In this document: piece by piece, positions 4,402-49,251 of the stretch | How the letters are laid out: each line of letters opens with the position of its first letter | Position numbering within the stretch: position 1 is the first letter of the stretch | Origin: Methyloversatilis sp. | Lineage (GTDB): Bacteria; Pseudomonadota; Gammaproteobacteria; Burkholderiales; Rhodocyclaceae | Reading direction: 5' to 3' | Assembly (NCBI RefSeq): GCF_030696805.1 | Contig: NZ_JAUYRO010000096.1 | Location: forward strand, 62,001 to 126,000 | DNA length: 64,000 bases | Notes under the pieces: generated by a model | What the model was told of the DNA's origin: nothing | Database searches by the model: none | The model's input: the letters and a program-made list of their open reading frames with translations, nothing else | Position numbers and translations under genes: made by a program

Positions 4402-6777
4402 TCAACGCACGCGTTGCTGGCCAAGTGCCTGACTGACCGCCCGATCGAACATCGGCTCGTTATTGACCACGCGCGCCTCGCCGTTGGCCAGCTGCAGCGC
4501 CAGCGCGTCTGGCGCGATCGAGGTCGCCCGCGTCGAACCGGGGTTCGTAAACAGATAGATGCCGCGTTGCGGGCTGACCCAGTTCAGGCGCATGCGCACA
4601 AAACTGCCATCGGCCTGCCTGAACTCGATCCAGTCGCCCCGCTTGAGTTCGAATACGCGGTCCTGCTCCTGGATATCGAGCGGTGACGGCAGGTTTAACG
4701 AAATGTCATTGAGTTCCAGTCCGTCCTGTTCGACACGCTCGCTGACCACTTCGGGCGCCGGCACATCGTCATTCGCCGAGTATGCCTCCGGTACCCACTG
4801 TTCGACTGCCGGTGCCGCTGTCGCCGCACCGGGCTTGATCCACTGCGCGTGCAGATCGAACAGGCCGTTGAGCAGCATCAGCTTGTCTGCCGGATGGGCG
4901 CCTGCCAGATCGAAGCCCTGGTTGAGGCGGCGCAGCAGACCGGGCAGCGCCACGACGAGGGCGCGGCGTTCATCCGCATCGGCCTTGGCTTGCACGCTCC
5001 AGATCAGTTCGTCGATGGTGGCGAGCGCCTGCTGGTAATCGACGGCCGCATCCGGACCGGTGTCGACATGCTTGCGCAGCAGCCGGCGCCATACGCCATC
5101 GAGCAGACTTTGCACCACGCCGGGCAGCGGTTTGCGCAGCCGGTCATCGATTTCGTCGTCGGCGGCGCGCCGCGCATCTTCGCGGCGCAGCCGTTCCTGC
5201 TCGCGCGCGCTGGCAATCAGCGCCGCCGCTTCCGCACGCTGCGTCTCGTCTGCTTCCAGTTCGATGACGAAGGCGCGCAGGTCGTCGCTGCACGCCTCGA
5301 AGAGACTCAGATCGCGGTCGAAATCGCGCAGGATGCGATCGACGATTTCCGCCAGCTTGATGTACAGCGGGTCTTCGTGTCCGACGTCACGCCCCCAGCG
5401 CATCATCGAATTGGAAATCAGGTCGAGCAGTCGACGTGCCGGATGCGCCTTGCTGGAGAAGAAGCTGCGGTCCAGCATGGCCACCTTGACCAGCGGAATC
5501 TGCAGCCGGCCGACCAGCGCCTTGATTGGATCGGCGATATCCGCGTCGTCGAAGATGAGGTCGAACAGCATGGCGACGATGTCGACCGTGATCGCATCGA
5601 ATTGTCCGAGATGGCGGCCCAGCTCGGAGGTGCGGAAACTGCGCAGCAGATTGGGCGGTATGCCGAGGTTGTAGGACGAAGCGGCGGGAACCGAGAGGTC
5701 AGCGTCGGACTGCAGCGCGCTCAGTGCCTCGAACACGAAAGGTGATGCAAGCCCGGCCGGGCTCGCCCCGGCGGCGCCGATCGGCGGCAGCGCAATACCC
5801 TGTGCCGCCATCTGGCCCTGGACCAGTTGCGACAGCATGGCGTAGATGTCGCCGTCTGCCTCCGCAGCGGCGCCAAACGCAGCCTGTTCTGCGAAGCCGC
5901 CATTCACCGACGACATGCCGAAGCCGGGCATCGATGCGGTGAAGCCTGCATCCTGGACACCGCCTATCGCAGGAAAACCACCCTGCCCACCAACTGATGG
6001 TGCAAATCCGCCGCTGGCCATTCCTGCCTGATCACTGGCTGCGCCGATGCCCTGACCATGCGTTGCGCCCACCACGCCGGCGCGCGCACCGACGTTGCGG
6101 CGGAATCCGCGACGCAGTCCCGGCAGCACGTTCTGCCGCTGCAACCGTACGTTCAGGTCCTGATACAACTTTGAAAGTTCGCGTGAAATCTGCGATTCGA
6201 GCGATTGCAGCAGCACCAGCCGCATCTGCACGCTGGCATCGACTTCTTCGCAGGCTGCGCGCAGCGCCTTGGCGACACCTTCGGTGCCGAGCGGATTGTC
6301 CTGATCGGTCGGATCCGTCTTGCCGAGCAGCGAGCCCAGACGCTGTTCGACGCCGAACAGCTCCTCGTCGCAGTGTTCCTTCAGCTTGCGGGTGAGTTCA
6401 TGAACAGCCAGATCCTGCGTCAGGTCGTCTTCGCCCACCAGGCTGAGCTCGTCGAGCGACGTCGGTACCGCAGATCGCGATGATTCAACCGGCTCGCCGC
6501 GCACACGCGCGTCGAAATAGCGGGTCAGGTGGTCGATGAAGGTTTGTTCGATGCCGGCCCACTGCTGGCGGGCCTTGCCGCAGGTAAACATGTAGAGGTT
6601 ACGCTGGTCACGGTCGAGCTCCGCTTCGGCCCGGGCGACGAGGTCTTCTTCGATTTTTTCCAGCATGCCGCGCAGCGAATCACGCAGGCGCCGGATCGTG
6701 AAATCCCGGCAGTCGCTGATCACCCGCCCTCGTTCGGGCGGTACGGCAGTCTGTTTCGGCAGGGGTACAGCGCTCAT
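4402..6777 (-). CDS. DUF1631 family protein under a c-di-GMP riboswitch
   Basis: A 791-residue cytosolic protein with no signal peptide or membrane segment, matching the DUF1631 family of beta/gammaproteobacteria, whose function is not known to me. It has a charged helical N-terminus (RDFTIRRLRDSL), a glycine/alanine-rich linker around residues 220-330, a long helical middle and a compact C-terminal segment (LKRGDWIEFRQADG, then LNWVSPQRGIYLFTN) that looks like a small beta-barrel. The last part recalls PilZ-type folds, but the canonical RxxxR and D/NxSxxG motifs are not visible. The leader carries a class I c-di-GMP riboswitch and a FliA-like promoter, so expression is probably tied to motility and second-messenger state. 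The ATG has AAAGGTG upstream. Confidence 0.9.
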   Translation of the reverse strand: MSAVPLPKQTAVPPERGRVISDCRDFTIRRLRDSLRGMLEKIEEDLVARAEAELDRDQRNLYMFTCGKARQQWAGIEQTFIDHLTRYFDARVRGEPVESSRSAVPTSLDELSLVGEDDLTQDLAVHELTRKLKEHCDEELFGVEQRLGSLLGKTDPTDQDNPLGTEGVAKALRAACEEVDASVQMRLVLLQSLESQISRELSKLYQDLNVRLQRQNVLPGLRRGFRRNVGARAGVVGATHGQGIGAASDQAGMASGGFAPSVGGQGGFPAIGGVQDAGFTASMPGFGMSSVNGGFAEQAAFGAAAEADGDIYAMLSQLVQGQMAAQGIALPPIGAAGASPAGLASPFVFEALSALQSDADLSVPAASSYNLGIPPNLLRSFRTSELGRHLGQFDAITVDIVAMLFDLIFDDADIADPIKALVGRLQIPLVKVAMLDRSFFSSKAHPARRLLDLISNSMMRWGRDVGHEDPLYIKLAEIVDRILRDFDRDLSLFEACSDDLRAFVIELEADETQRAEAAALIASAREQERLRREDARRAADDEIDDRLRKPLPGVVQSLLDGVWRRLLRKHVDTGPDAAVDYQQALATIDELIWSVQAKADADERRALVVALPGLLRRLNQGFDLAGAHPADKLMLLNGLFDLHAQWIKPGAATAAPAVEQWVPEAYSANDDVPAPEVVSERVEQDGLELNDISLNLPSPLDIQEQDRVFELKRGDWIEFRQADGSFVRMRLNWVSPQRGIYLFTNPGSTRATSIAPDALALQLANGEARVVNNEPMFDRAVSQALGQQRVR

Positions 6778-6860
6778 GATTCACCTTTGCGGCCGCGCAC
6801 GGCGGTCGGTAAAGGCTGAAACGGGGCGCAAAGTCAGGACCGGACGCGAGGCGTGGTACA

Positions 6861-6956
6861 GCATCACGGCGGCCCCGCTGTCATGGGGCGCTGGGCACCC
6901 GGTAGACCGGAAACTTTGCGTCGCCACCTTTCGGTGGGTTTGCCCTGGTTCAGCTT
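6861..6956 (-). promoter_or_regulatory. Cyclic-di-GMP-I (GEMM) riboswitch aptamer
   Basis: Read on the minus strand, the leader of the DUF1631 gene has the conserved GEMM blocks in order. GGGCAAACC (6945-6937) comes first, then a CACC-GAAA-GGTG hairpin with a GNRA tetraloop (6936-6925), then GACGCAAAG (6922-6914). A second helix follows whose base includes GGTC/GAC and whose tip is a perfect GGGTGC-CCA-GCGCCC stem (6900-6886). It closes with GCGGGGCCGCC. This layout is that of class I c-di-GMP aptamers. There is no U-run before the start codon, so control of translation is more likely than termination; whether ligand turns the gene on or off cannot be read. Confidence 0.85.
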
Positions 6957-6975
6957 CAATATGTCGTCACATCAT

Positions 6976-7002
6976 TTAACGACTGCGCTGCGCAAGACTT
7001 TA
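6976..7002 (-). promoter_or_regulatory. FliA (sigma28)-like promoter for the riboswitch-DUF1631 transcript
   Basis: Minus strand: TAAAGTCT (7002-6995), 11 bases, GTCGTTAA (6983-6976). The sigma28 consensus is TAAAGTTT-N11-GCCGATAA, so 7 of 8 and 6 of 8 positions match with exact spacing. It begins 5 bases after the HDOD stop codon, and the expected start point lies about 10-15 bases before the riboswitch aptamer. This is pattern matching only; no flagellar gene is in the window. Confidence 0.55.
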
Positions 7003-7007
7003 GGCCC

Positions 7008-7865
7008 TCATATCTGCAACGTGGCGATGATGGAGTCGAGTTCTTCCTTCGATTCCGCGACCACCGCCTCCAGCGTTTCATTGTCGATGTCCGAGGTCGC
7101 CGCGTCGGCAAGAACCCCGTCCTCTTCCGGCGACAGCGTGGAGAACGGATTAGGGAATGCTGCCATGCTTTCGGCGAGGAACAGCACGTCGCCCAGCGAT
7201 CGGGGCGGCACGACTGCGCCTTCGAACGACGGTGCATCAATGGCAGCGATCACCTGTTCCGGTACCTTGAGCGATTCGAGCACGGCGCGGCCGACGCTCT
7301 GGCTGAAACTGAACATCAGCCCGCCCAGTTCGGCTTCGCGCTGCAGCAGCGCAGGAAAGGCCGAGGCGCGGGCCAGCAGGTAGAACTGGCCGATTTCATG
7401 CACCAGACCGGCGAACATGGCCGTGTCGGCGTTGAGCCGCGAAAGGCGACGCGCGATGACGTAGCTCAGTGCCGAAACGTGAATGGTGTGCCGCCACAGG
7501 TCATGCGTCAGGACGCGCAGGCGTTCGTCGGCGCGCGCGTCCACCATCTGGCGGACGATGAGCGACATCGTGAGCATGCGGATCGGCTCGGTTCCGACGC
7601 GCGTGACCGCGGTACGGACGTCGGTGATTTCGTTGCCGCTGCGGTTGTAGGCGACCGAATTGGCGAGACGCAGCGCTTTCGCGCTGAGAACCGGCTCGGC
7701 GCCAACCAGCCGGCAGACCTCATTGACATTGATATCAGGATTCTCAAGCGCTTGCCGGATGCGCAGCGACACGTCAATGCTGGTCGGGAAGACGATGTCG
7801 CCCGATTCAAGTTCCGCTGACAGCCGCTGCAGTGCCTCAAGCGATGAATTCACCGGCTCACCCAT
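7008..7865 (-). CDS. HDOD domain protein
   Basis: A 285-residue protein made mostly of an HDOD domain (about residues 10-205), a non-catalytic relative of HD phosphohydrolases used in bacterial signalling. The VHEIGQF segment marks the HD-like core; a complete metal-binding HD set is not evident, as expected for HDOD. The last 60 residues are acidic. The ATG at 7865 was chosen because GGAGAA lies 7 bases upstream; a longer in-frame start 33 bases earlier is possible. The gene lies just upstream of the c-di-GMP-controlled DUF1631 gene on the same strand. Confidence 0.87.
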   Translation of the reverse strand: MGEPVNSSLEALQRLSAELESGDIVFPTSIDVSLRIRQALENPDINVNEVCRLVGAEPVLSAKALRLANSVAYNRSGNEITDVRTAVTRVGTEPIRMLTMSLIVRQMVDARADERLRVLTHDLWRHTIHVSALSYVIARRLSRLNADTAMFAGLVHEIGQFYLLARASAFPALLQREAELGGLMFSFSQSVGRAVLESLKVPEQVIAAIDAPSFEGAVVPPRSLGDVLFLAESMAAFPNPFSTLSPEEDGVLADAATSDIDNETLEAVVAESKEELDSIIATLQI

Positions 7866-7982
7866 GACATGTTCTCCGTGACGCACCGAGGTGCGCATAT
7901 GGTTCGATGTCTGTGTATACGGCAGCGTGCGGGTCGGACTTGATCCCCGATTCAGCTCACGCTGACGCCGCTCGCCTGCAGG

Positions 7983-43054: not shown

Positions 43055-44392
43055 ATGCTGAACAGCCTTTTCGGGTCGAACTTGCATCAGGAAATCCAGA
43101 AGATTGCAGACAACGCATTGCGTGGCGACGGCTACGCACCCTCTGCGCGTGGCAGCGCACGACAGCGCGCGTTGCTGGGCTCGCTGGCAAATGCGCTCAA
43201 TGGCGTGAAAAAGGGTCTGCACGTCGCGGAAGAACAGGTTGGGCAGCTGGAAGGCGATCTGGCGGCCGCGAAGGCTGAGCTGACTGAAGCGCGCGAGGCG
43301 GGCGATCGGGCGCGTACGCGTGGCGACATGATGGCGTCGGTGTCCGAAGCGGGTTTGTGGGAAGCCACGCCGGGCGACAGCCGAACTCTGGACCTGAAAG
43401 CGCCAGTCTGGTGGTCCGATACCGTCCGACACATGCTGGGCTTCGACAGCGAAGCCGACTTTCCGAACCGGCTCGAAAGCTGGTCGAGCCGCCTTCATCC
43501 GGATGACCGCAAGGCCACGCTGGAGGCGCTGAGCCAGGCATGGTGCAACCGCCGCGACGGCAGCTGGCCCGATATGCAGTACCGGATCGCCGCCAGGGAT
43601 GGCAGCTACCGCTGGATACGCGGTCGCATGGTGACGGCCTTCGGCGCGTCCGGCCAGTCGCTGCGCATTGCCGGTTCAATGACCGACATCACTCAGCGCC
43701 GGGAAGATGAAGCGATGCTGGACGTCACGCTGACCCGCTTCACGCTGGCCAGTGAAATGCTCAACGACGGCATCTGGGATCTGGACGTCGTCGCTGGCGA
43801 TCCGGTCAATCCGTCAAACACATTCTGGTGGTCGGATCAGTTCCGTCAGCTGATCGGCTTCGAGACCGAAGAGGAATTTCCCAACGTACTCGACAGCTGG
43901 GCCTCACGCCTGCATCCGGAAGAGAAACAGGCCGTTTTCAAGGCATTCATCGACCATCTGATGGACCGCAGTGGCCGCACACCCTACTGCATCGACTACC
44001 GGCTGCGCTGCAAGGACAACCAGTACCGCTGGTTCCGCGCCCGCGGCCGCACCCGGCGCGCCGCTGACGGCACGCCGCTGCGTGCGGTCGGCGCGCTAAC
44101 GAGCATCGACAGCGAACTGAACGAACGCCATCTCCAGGAACTGGAACTGAACCAGCGCCAGCAACTGAAGGACAACGTCCAGAAAATCCACGAAATCGTC
44201 ACGACGATCCGCGACATCGCCAGCCAGACGAACCGTCTGGCACTCAATGCGGCGATCGAAGCGGCGCGAGCCGGCGATGCCGGACGAGGCTTCTCGGTCG
44301 TGGCCGACGAGGTGCGTACGCTGTCCGAACGCACGCGCGAAGCGACTGAACAGATCGCCCATATCATCCCTGCGCAGGAAGTGATGCACTGA
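43055..44392 (+). CDS. Soluble PAS-PAS methyl-accepting chemotaxis-type protein (BdlA-like)
   Basis: 445 residues without signal peptide or membrane segments. An N-terminal coiled coil (about 45-85) leads into two PAS_3 domains (about 90-215 and 225-345; [11 protein letters not shown] and [11 protein letters not shown] mark equivalent positions). A short MCP signalling hairpin follows ([33 protein letters not shown], about 385-420) with little methylation helix. This is the layout of BdlA, the biofilm-dispersal receptor of Pseudomonas. GGAGGA precedes the ATG. The ligand is unknown. Confidence 0.88.
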
Positions 44393-47400: not shown

Positions 47401-48082
47401 GTTCCAGCTTGAGCGTCGCTTCGCGCTCGTCGATGAAGGGCCGCACCTTGCCCTGTAACGCAAATGCTGCGTCGTTGACCCGCGCGGAGATCGACGGCTC
47501 GACATGAAGCTCGATGTCGGACGGCAGATTGGACACGAAGGGCAGACCGATTTCGATGTTGCTGATCGTATGCTGCCGCCCCAATGGCTGGTCATCGATA
47601 TCGATGTGACCGCCGCGCAGGACGATGTTGTTGATCGAGAAGCGCGCCGGCTCGTCGTCGGTCGGGGGTTGATCGAGAATCTTGTTCAGTACGTCGCTGA
47701 AGTTGTAGGTCGATGAATCGATGCGCGCAAGCCGGACGCGCAGCTGATCGATCTCTACCGAGCGCACGATCGGCGCGCCACGGAATACCGAAGACCACTC
47801 CACATCCACCGCCAGCCGGGCAAGGCTCAGCGCCTCGGTTTCTTCGTTCGCCTCCAGGACGCGCAGGCCGACCAGAGACATTTCGAGCGTATAGGGGTTG
47901 ATCGATACCTCGTTCAGCGTGAGCTGTCGGCCGAGAAACTCCGAGCCGTGCTTTTCTGCCAGTGACCGCACGACGTGCGGCGCTGCAAAGAATCCGAACA
48001 GGCCGAACAAGACCAGAAAAATGATCAAACCGATCAAGGTCTTGCGAAGGCGTGGGCGGGAATCAAGAATGTGGACAGGCAT
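44417..48082 (-). CDS. Giant AsmA-like/DUF748 envelope protein with OmpA-like C-terminus
   Basis: 1221 residues. One N-terminal membrane helix (LIGLIIFLVLFGLFGFFA, about 14-31) is followed by a very long repetitive beta region of the DUF748/AsmA type, and an OmpA-like peptidoglycan-binding domain (LDTLGKALTDRPALKIEVTGRTD, about 1050-1090). AsmA-like proteins are thought to bridge inner and outer membranes for lipid transport. A Pro/Ala-rich linker is near 815. MPVHILD was chosen because earlier starts lack the helix at the N-terminus. Confidence 0.88.
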   Translation of the reverse strand: MPVHILDSRPRLRKTLIGLIIFLVLFGLFGFFAAPHVVRSLAEKHGSEFLGRQLTLNEVSINPYTLEMSLVGLRVLEANEETEALSLARLAVDVEWSSVFRGAPIVRSVEIDQLRVRLARIDSSTYNFSDVLNKILDQPPTDDEPARFSINNIVLRGGHIDIDDQPLGRQHTISNIEIGLPFVSNLPSDIELHVEPSISARVNDAAFALQGKVRPFIDEREATLKLELKALGLARSDEYSPVPLDFRIAAGTLDTDIEIGFRQPLKGEPRITLRGTLGLHDLKLDDKSGAALIKLPALDVVLNEIEPLIGKVDIASVRIDQPDIDVARAKDGRLNLLSLVPSARTEQAEPAPADAPAAASQAAATTKPDIKIALFEVVQARIGVSDALPVRPFAFVVEPIDIVLRDFSLQGDVPATLVVDAKGEGGLQVTVDARATASTMTVEGELTVASLDIPRFAGYLPASLDFMIEQAQARLGTKLKVALVEGVPQGQVTVTEAGVAGLKLVRKGAKQPFAQADDIVLSGATVDLAARTVKVDALDIVQPKLRAAREADGNIDLAGLVVAPPPPMATASIAADSPQQGVPWTALLGAFRLTDGAVRFEDRTLKKPGVVELDKIALTVDNIGTDKTLKSRVDLAFRDAAGGLFGARGGFSLQPVSAGLKLDARRLDLLAGQPWMAERLNAELLRGNVSLRGDLGVQVAPAGSWALSWNGETTVADVHLTDKIHASDLLKWRSLFIGAVALKLDSSKSDLLSSLSVGEVALSDYFARIILSKEGRLNLQDIVKQPASASTSVAPPIAPIVAAPPAKPKPPASQSAALARMIDAARPPVDVKTIVLQGGQVDFSDFFIKPNYRAQLSKLGGRVSGLSSKSGTAGEVELRGVVEGSAPIDITGRINPLAGPLFLDIKANARGIELAPLSPYSGKYVGYGIEKGKMSVSIAYKIENDQLTAQNNVVLDQLTFGAPVDSPDAIKAPILLAVSLLKDRNGVIDIHLPISGSLSDPQFSIGGLVVKVIVNLIVKAVTSPFALLGSLFGSDADLDHVAFEPGRASLGDTARGKLDTLGKALTDRPALKIEVTGRTDRATDAEGYRRALLDNKVKAVKAAKSKLPVNEVVVDPAEYPDLLETVYKAASFPKPRNIVGLTKSLPVGEMETLIMTNTEVSDEDLRLLGLARAQAVKDYLAQQAKIDDARLFVIAPNTVAKNGEKTTDDKASPARADFSIK

Positions 48083-48243
48083 GCTGCATCCATCGGGCAC
48101 GGGGAAAACGGAGCGTATCACCGCCCGGCACCGGCGGAGGCCCGGGAACCTGCGATGACTGTCGCCGCGGACGGCACTCAAGTGCCTGCGGGTCCGGGCC
48201 GATAACCACAACGATCCTCCTGTTTCCGGACACGCCGCCGTTT

Positions 48244-49251
48244 ATGTCAGATCTCATCGGATCAGTCGCCAATCTCACCGGATACCGTGACCGCGATCTC
48301 ATCGACAGTACCTTTGTTTCGGTACTGGGGGATTGGCTCGACCCGATGCGGCTGAATCTGTACCGCTGCGTCGGCGACGGTTCAGACCTGCGTCTTCTGC
48401 TGCAGGCGGCTATGGCAAAAGGTCAAGGCATGGTTGCGGCGGACCCTTCCTGGACACCACTCGAAGCGCTGCCACAGCTGTTGTCGCGCCCCCAGTTCGA
48501 ACAGGCTTTCGCACAGGACGAACCGCTGCTTGATCTGCCGCTGCGCGACGATGACGGTCCGTGGCTCAATCTTTTCGCGGTATGGGCCGGGCCACGACGC
48601 TTCGGCATCATCGAACTGATCAGCGAACAGCCTCTGCTGGCAGTTCAGCTCCGGCTGGTGACCGGCCTGCTGAAGATATATCGCAACCAGATCACGCTGC
48701 TCGACTACAGCGAACGCGACAGCCTGACAGGTCTGCTGAACCGCAAGACCTTTGATGAACAGTTCCTGAAATGCATCGAACCGACAAAGGACGACAGGCC
48801 TTTGTCCTGGTGGCTGGGCGTCATCGATATCGACCATTTCAAACAGGTGAATGACAACTTCGGTCACCTGATCGGCGACGAGGTCTTATTGCTCGTGGCC
48901 CGCCTGCTGCGCAGTGCTTTTCGCCAGAGCGAGCAGCTGTATCGTTTCGGCGGCGAGGAATTCATCGTGCTGCTGCGTGCCGAGCACGAAGGCGAGGCCA
49001 TGCTCGCCTTCGAGTTCTTCCGCGAACAGCTTGCAGGCTTCAATTTCCCGCGGGTCGGCACAGTCACCGCGAGCGTCGGGTTCACGCGCGTTCGCGCGAT
49101 GGACAATGCGAGCAGCGCGGTGGACCGTGGCGACCGCGCCGTGTATCACGCGAAGAAGCACGGGCGCAACCAGGTGCATTCGCACGAGGCTCTGCTGCGC
49201 AGCGACGAACTGCTCGAGGTGGACAACTGCGGCGAAATCGAACTGTTCTGA
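48244..49251 (+). CDS. GGDEF-domain diguanylate cyclase
   Basis: 335 residues. The first 155 form an unassigned, apparently soluble input domain. The GGDEF domain has DSLTGLLNRKTF, DIDHFKQVND and an intact RFGGEEF active loop. The product-inhibition I-site five residues earlier reads RQSE rather than RxxD, so feedback inhibition may be weak. Divergent from the DUF748 gene. The Shine-Dalgarno is weak. Confidence 0.9.
   Translation: MSDLIGSVANLTGYRDRDLIDSTFVSVLGDWLDPMRLNLYRCVGDGSDLRLLLQAAMAKGQGMVAADPSWTPLEALPQLLSRPQFEQAFAQDEPLLDLPLRDDDGPWLNLFAVWAGPRRFGIIELISEQPLLAVQLRLVTGLLKIYRNQITLLDYSERDSLTGLLNRKTFDEQFLKCIEPTKDDRPLSWWLGVIDIDHFKQVNDNFGHLIGDEVLLLVARLLRSAFRQSEQLYRFGGEEFIVLLRAEHEGEAMLAFEFFREQLAGFNFPRVGTVTASVGFTRVRAMDNASSAVDRGDRAVYHAKKHGRNQVHSHEALLRSDELLEVDNCGEIELF

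Follow-up and report, generated by a model that had tools for sequence, protein, structure and literature searches.

A single locus of Methyloversatilis sp. raises the question of whether a riboswitch for cyclic di-GMP (c-di-GMP) controls a gene of the DUF1631 family, annotated without a function, and, if it does, in which state of the cell the gene would be expressed. The locus lies in a window of 64,000 nucleotides, the whole stretch of DNA that was analysed, and coordinates below refer to it. The explanation that we consider probable as a whole is that a canonical c-di-GMP-I riboswitch controls the DUF1631 gene, acting as a translational off-switch in a leader transcribed by FliA, and that the product is a protein of motile cells.

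The aptamer and its target gene

Scanning the whole window with Infernal (cmscan) gave a match to the Rfam model RF01051 (c-di-GMP-I) at 6954-6865(-), with 59.5 bits and E 4.1e-9 against an Rfam gathering score of 35 bits, and by Rfam's own threshold this segment is a c-di-GMP-I aptamer. The match is full-length (model 1-87 of 87), in keeping with the original prediction that all conserved GEMM blocks are present; the coordinates predicted at that time, 6861-6956, were right to within 2-4 nt, and so were strand and identity. It is the single RF01051 match in the genome. The next gene on the minus strand, whose ATG stands 87 nt from the 3' end of the aptamer, matches PF07793 at 516.2 bits against a cut-off of 33.7, over profile positions 4-739 of 741, placing the aptamer in a DUF1631 leader as predicted; this gene, 6777-4402(-), is the only DUF1631 copy in the genome.

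6865..6954, minus strand: c-di-GMP-I (GEMM-I) riboswitch aptamer (RF01051, 59.5 bits; gathering score 35)
4402..6777, minus strand: target gene, encoding a DUF1631 (PF07793) protein of 791 aa (516 bits, E 2.3e-154)

For the DUF1631 protein, structure prediction gives largely helices and, at the C-terminus, a small beta barrel, which was weighed as a possible PilZ-like c-di-GMP receptor; no fold match to the protein was strong enough to name. PADLOC returned no match. The idea that the C-terminal domain occurs as a module joined to GGDEF or EAL proteins was rejected: profile A5 for this domain matched 21 of 31 genomes, nearly always in frames of 672-882 aa (taken as DUF1631, not each checked), and the two exceptions, in frames of 346 and 277 aa, were weak (E 0.005 and 0.007). 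In the literature searched, mostly without subscription journals, no paper linking DUF1631 to c-di-GMP was found, and the mentions of DUF1631 that were found stand in tables only, with no function given. The window also encodes the two further signalling proteins of the original prediction, a diguanylate cyclase (a GGDEF protein at 48052-49248(+)) and a BdlA-like receptor (a two-PAS plus MCP-signal protein at 43055-44389(+)).

A survey of DUF1631 leaders finds the link to be kept, and as far as searched it is unreported. Every one of 13 genomes of the genus has one DUF1631 gene with an aptamer before it, and the spacing from aptamer to ATG is 85-87 nt across the 13 leaders (four rows were shifted by 3 nt, the position given being that of the second codon). 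Among 80 named DUF1631 loci, the best 80 of 526, 50 carry an aptamer 5' of the gene and on the same strand according to model R1, each with E below 1e-13, and Rfam models confirm all 14 of these that were tested. Bearers include Desulfobacillus, Accumulibacter, Propionivibrio, Uliginosibacterium and Sulfuriferula; the named set also holds two Methyloversatilis loci (L084 and L089) whose DUF1631 is 96% identical to the window protein. No aptamer was found in the other 30 of the 80 loci, where the best match has E 0.15; these include Chitinimonas and the gammaproteobacterial Thiocapsa, and in three of them (L091, L129, L138) the DNA preceding the match is shorter than 100 nt. In a sample of 199 genomes of the family, RF01051 occurs in 101 and DUF1631 in 101; 27 genomes have the two no more than 3 kb apart, correctly ordered and on the matching strand, a figure that compares 120 DUF1631 places with 150 aptamers, both lists being incomplete. 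Adding the genome studied here and G005 brings the total to at least 29 of the 101 DUF1631-bearing genomes. As separate observations, a tandem pair of DUF1631 matches lies behind one aptamer at L053, L054, L059 and L060 (G172, G196, G106, G053), and at L151 and L138 the DUF1631 frame is broken on the contig.

Expression platform and direction of control

Downstream of the aptamer, the leader contains a Shine-Dalgarno sequence and two helices that could connect it to the aptamer.

6784..6788, minus strand: Shine-Dalgarno sequence AAAGG, read from the sequence, before the ATG at 6777-6775
6783..6816, minus strand: hairpin formed by 6816-6812 as 5' arm and the Shine-Dalgarno region at 6787-6783 (alignment A4, pair counts, single-sequence folds)
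6815..6954, minus strand: 6954-6940 and 6831-6815, which may form an alternative helix when no ligand is bound (consensus fold)

The hairpin over the Shine-Dalgarno sequence is kept in the genus, with 90.2% of cells paired as against 24-48% when the structure is slid; two of its pairs show double changes, and its covariation score was reached by 3 of 500 shuffles. The alternative helix is paired in 93% of cells in 11 distinct genus rows, and no covariation was seen in it among those rows. A candidate anti-aptamer element, ACUUUGCG at 6834-6827, which complements CGCAAAGU in the aptamer, was set aside as a main argument, being present in only part of the genus. Neither an intrinsic terminator nor a sigma-70 promoter was found in 6700-7100. 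With a hairpin predicted to cover the Shine-Dalgarno sequence, the platform looks translational.

The mechanism that we propose is an exchange between these helices. Where c-di-GMP is absent, the 5' side of the aptamer would pair with 6831-6815, and the Shine-Dalgarno sequence would be partly free. Binding of c-di-GMP would lock the aptamer and set 6816-6812 free to cover the Shine-Dalgarno region by base pairing, so that DUF1631 would no longer be translated. The presence of the riboswitch suggests that c-di-GMP influences how much DUF1631 is made, which bears on the production of the protein rather than on any signalling role of its own.

Folding calculations bear on the sign of this response. 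Enforcing the aptamer in the window leader lowers predicted access to the Shine-Dalgarno sequence from 0.47 to 0.01, a fall that 2 of 8 shuffles equal and that is not significant for this leader alone. Across the 13 genus leaders treated in the same way, access falls clearly in seven, is low in both states in four and rises in two. In 44 leaders, which are related and hence not independent, forcing the aptamer makes access fall in 18, rise in 3 and hardly change in 23, against 5-13 falls and 1-4 rises in eight shuffled sets of leaders. From this modelling we lean towards c-di-GMP turning DUF1631 translation off. The few rises, the many leaders with hardly any change and the existence of both on- and off-type c-di-GMP-I switches lend some weight to a different arrangement, in which c-di-GMP turns DUF1631 on, or acts on transcription through Rho or attenuation, and the gene serves biofilm or surface life. 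We judge such an arrangement rather unlikely, as 6700-7100 yielded no intrinsic terminator, the Shine-Dalgarno hairpin is conserved and the falls in access exceed those of the shuffles.

A sigma-28-like promoter motif ahead of the riboswitch

The interval between the aptamer and the gene upstream contains a motif that resembles the promoters of the flagellar sigma factor sigma-28 (FliA), for which the consensus is TAAA-N15-GCCGATAA.

6976..7002, minus strand: sigma-28 (FliA)-like promoter, TAAA-N15-GTCGTTAA (11 of 12 consensus positions)
7008..7898, minus strand: HDOD-domain gene, upstream neighbour, probably a separate unit (PF08668, 109 bits)

From this motif, transcription would be expected to start near 6969, and the leader RNA to begin about 15 nt upstream of the aptamer. 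The motif scores 10.5 or 11 of 12 in all 13 genus leaders, and the spacer between the boxes varies although the boxes themselves are kept. Among 51 linked loci, 18 reach at least 10 of 12 and 12 reach 11, whereas dinucleotide shuffles give means of 0.5 loci at 10 and 0.1 at 11, with maxima of 2 and 1 in 40 sets; of 4790 random 100-nt stretches from the same loci, 0.86% reach 10. Eight of these 18 loci come from this genus, if L085 (a MAG) is counted as a member, and ten from the other 43 loci. The remaining 33 of the 51 fall below 10, L137, with only N upstream, among them. In 10 of the 51, instead or additionally, a sigma-70-like pair scores at least 9 of 12 (shuffles 3.2, maximum 6), an excess which suggests that some members of the linked group rely on other promoters. 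DUF1631 genes without the aptamer (n=27) include three at 10 or more and none at 11, for which random 250-nt stretches (2.9% at 10 or more, 0.4% at 11) are the comparison; the sigma-28-like motif therefore appears to go with the riboswitch and not with the gene. Its place before the DUF1631 riboswitch is new here.

The motif alone is not specific, since a genome-wide pattern search allowing at most one mismatch returned 44 matches, the window copy (G000:C35:68976-69002(-)) included, vs 40 for the reversed control. Of the 44 places, 30 were viewed: the motif precedes fliD, flgM, fliS and fliL (four genes chosen by translation, with family search), and other places precede genes without an evident flagellar role. 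The genome encodes two FliA proteins, each at about 275 bits against a cut-off of 189.6; these FliA-type sigma factor genes are at G000:C20:5098-5763 and C52:87477-88148. Flagella, as judged by FliS, are weakly associated with DUF1631 (92 of 101 DUF1631 genomes vs 78 of 98 others; Fisher p 0.027, kinship ignored), and a FliS match is absent in 3 of the 29 genomes with riboswitch plus DUF1631 (G085, G121, G153). The locus of one of these (L034, G121) keeps only 8 of 12 sigma-28 positions, a single case; FliS-bearing relatives of it are degenerate in the motif also, L036 for example at 9 of 12.

The gene upstream offers another possible source of the transcript. The HDOD gene lies on the same strand, and its stop is 5 nt before the promoter-like motif and 53 nt upstream of the aptamer; an HDOD relative is present in 14 of the 50 riboswitch-bearing named loci, and neither a sigma-70 promoter nor a terminator was found between HDOD and DUF1631. 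One mRNA could accordingly run from the HDOD gene through an intercistronic aptamer, and the switch would then only tune the second gene. This strikes us as improbable. The distance from the sigma-28-like motif to the aptamer is nearly constant, 48-50 nt in 12 of the 13 genus leaders, and further off in one, at 67; and 36 of the 50 riboswitch-bearing loci yielded no HDOD relative, although in some of these the DNA available upstream is short. As an aside, c-di-GMP-I aptamers in two loci of other genera (L017, L029) precede HDOD-like proteins, judged by eye.

On the preferred reading, a FliA-transcribed leader, FliA (sigma-28) would transcribe from 7002-6976(-), and such transcription, as read from the conserved promoter sequence, would place the DUF1631 gene in the late flagellar regulon. 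The sigma-28-like promoter together with the predicted off-switch suggests that DUF1631 belongs to the swimming state; it would be a protein of motile cells, off when c-di-GMP rises.

The same order is seen elsewhere in the genus. Of 11 other c-di-GMP-I aptamers scored in the genus, nine reach 10 for the motif (L025, L062, L064-L067, L069, L074, L079), which stands at 36-38 nt, or 48 in L079; in other genera 0 of 28 do so. Four genes behind other aptamers of the genus were searched, and encode two reprolysin-like peptidases (L025, L067), one PAS protein and one protein without a match. In Methyloversatilis, promoter plus riboswitch in this order thus recurs before secreted reprolysin-like peptidases, and because of this recurrence the order may serve more generally, as a module through which RNA ties the motility programme to c-di-GMP. 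More tentatively, then, we propose a two-input gate, sigma-28 promoter first and c-di-GMP riboswitch second, by which DUF1631 would be made only in swimming cells low in c-di-GMP, and whose order is perhaps general. If true, this order would be a compact AND-NOT gate.

Ligand contacts, descent of the pairing and comparison with known systems

When 51 aptamers were aligned by fitting to the model, which favours the model's pairs, 94.7% of pair cells were standard, as against 29-44% for slid structures; 15 of 22 pairs had changes on both sides, and the covariation score was reached by 0 of 500 shuffles. A MAFFT alignment of 20 aptamer rows gave 93.2% paired, with double-sided changes in 13 of 22 pairs. 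Three alignment columns we take to be equivalent to G20, A47 and C92 of the Vc2 aptamer, in Vc2 numbering. The first is G in 51 of 51 rows and the third C in 51 of 51; the A47-equivalent column holds A in 40, G in 10 and T in 1. With G, A and C in these columns, the window copy has the canonical presumed ligand contacts, and would be expected to bind c-di-GMP. Some relatives linked to DUF1631 (L037, L093, L114, L119, L124) score best with RF03167, c-di-GMP-I-GGC, and one might ask whether the ligand of the fold is instead another dinucleotide, for example 3',3'-cGAMP. We hold this to be very improbable for the window copy, whose listed model is RF01051, given that the invariant G at the G20-equivalent column is presumably the residue that separates c-di-GMP from cGAMP binders.

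The pairing of aptamer and gene was also followed on a tree of 69 DUF1631 proteins, the window protein and 68 of the 80 named loci, in which 44 rows have the aptamer and 25 do not (L091 scored as aptamer-less). Aptamer-bearing rows fall on either side of the midpoint root, and the label is clustered, with 12 changes vs 20.7 in shuffles, 0 of 500 of which were as low. Given thousands of genes and roughly a single aptamer in each genome, we estimate that chance adjacency would be expected to yield far below one case. The recurrence before DUF1631 in Betaproteobacteria argues that the regulatory link is no chance neighbourhood and, with the Rfam threshold passed, supports the link originally predicted. 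That the aptamer is a non-functional remnant or a chance neighbour is hardly credible, considering that its pairs covary and that its clustered recurrence spans the root.

DUF1631 is a large family, and its conserved pairing with a sensor of c-di-GMP, often preceded by a promoter of flagellar type, points to motility and surface attachment; DUF1631 may take part in the switch between swimming and settling.

Four known systems allow comparison. The window riboswitch is an ordinary member of the RF01051 class, with which it shares the full-length match, a two-hairpin aptamer with a GAAA loop, a position in the 5' leader and canonical presumed ligand contacts. It differs in its target, DUF1631, in following a sigma-28-like motif, and in a 5' flank of the aptamer that is able to pair with the platform in a competing helix. 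RF03167 belongs to the same clan and precedes DUF1631 in some relatives, whereas the window copy is listed under RF01051, in a listing that keeps only the best model per clan. NCBIfam NF058594 (PacR) has a DUF1631 core in common with the window protein, which it matches at 207 bits, best over residues 390-781, but which stays far below the cut-off of 1200 bits. The FliA-type promoters of the genome before fliD, flgM and fliS are of the type TMAA-N15-GCCGWTAA and resemble the window motif, which differs from them in preceding the riboswitch leader of a DUF1631 gene annotated without a function. The interest of the locus resides in this target, its promoter and the predicted role of DUF1631 in motility, rather than in the class of the aptamer.
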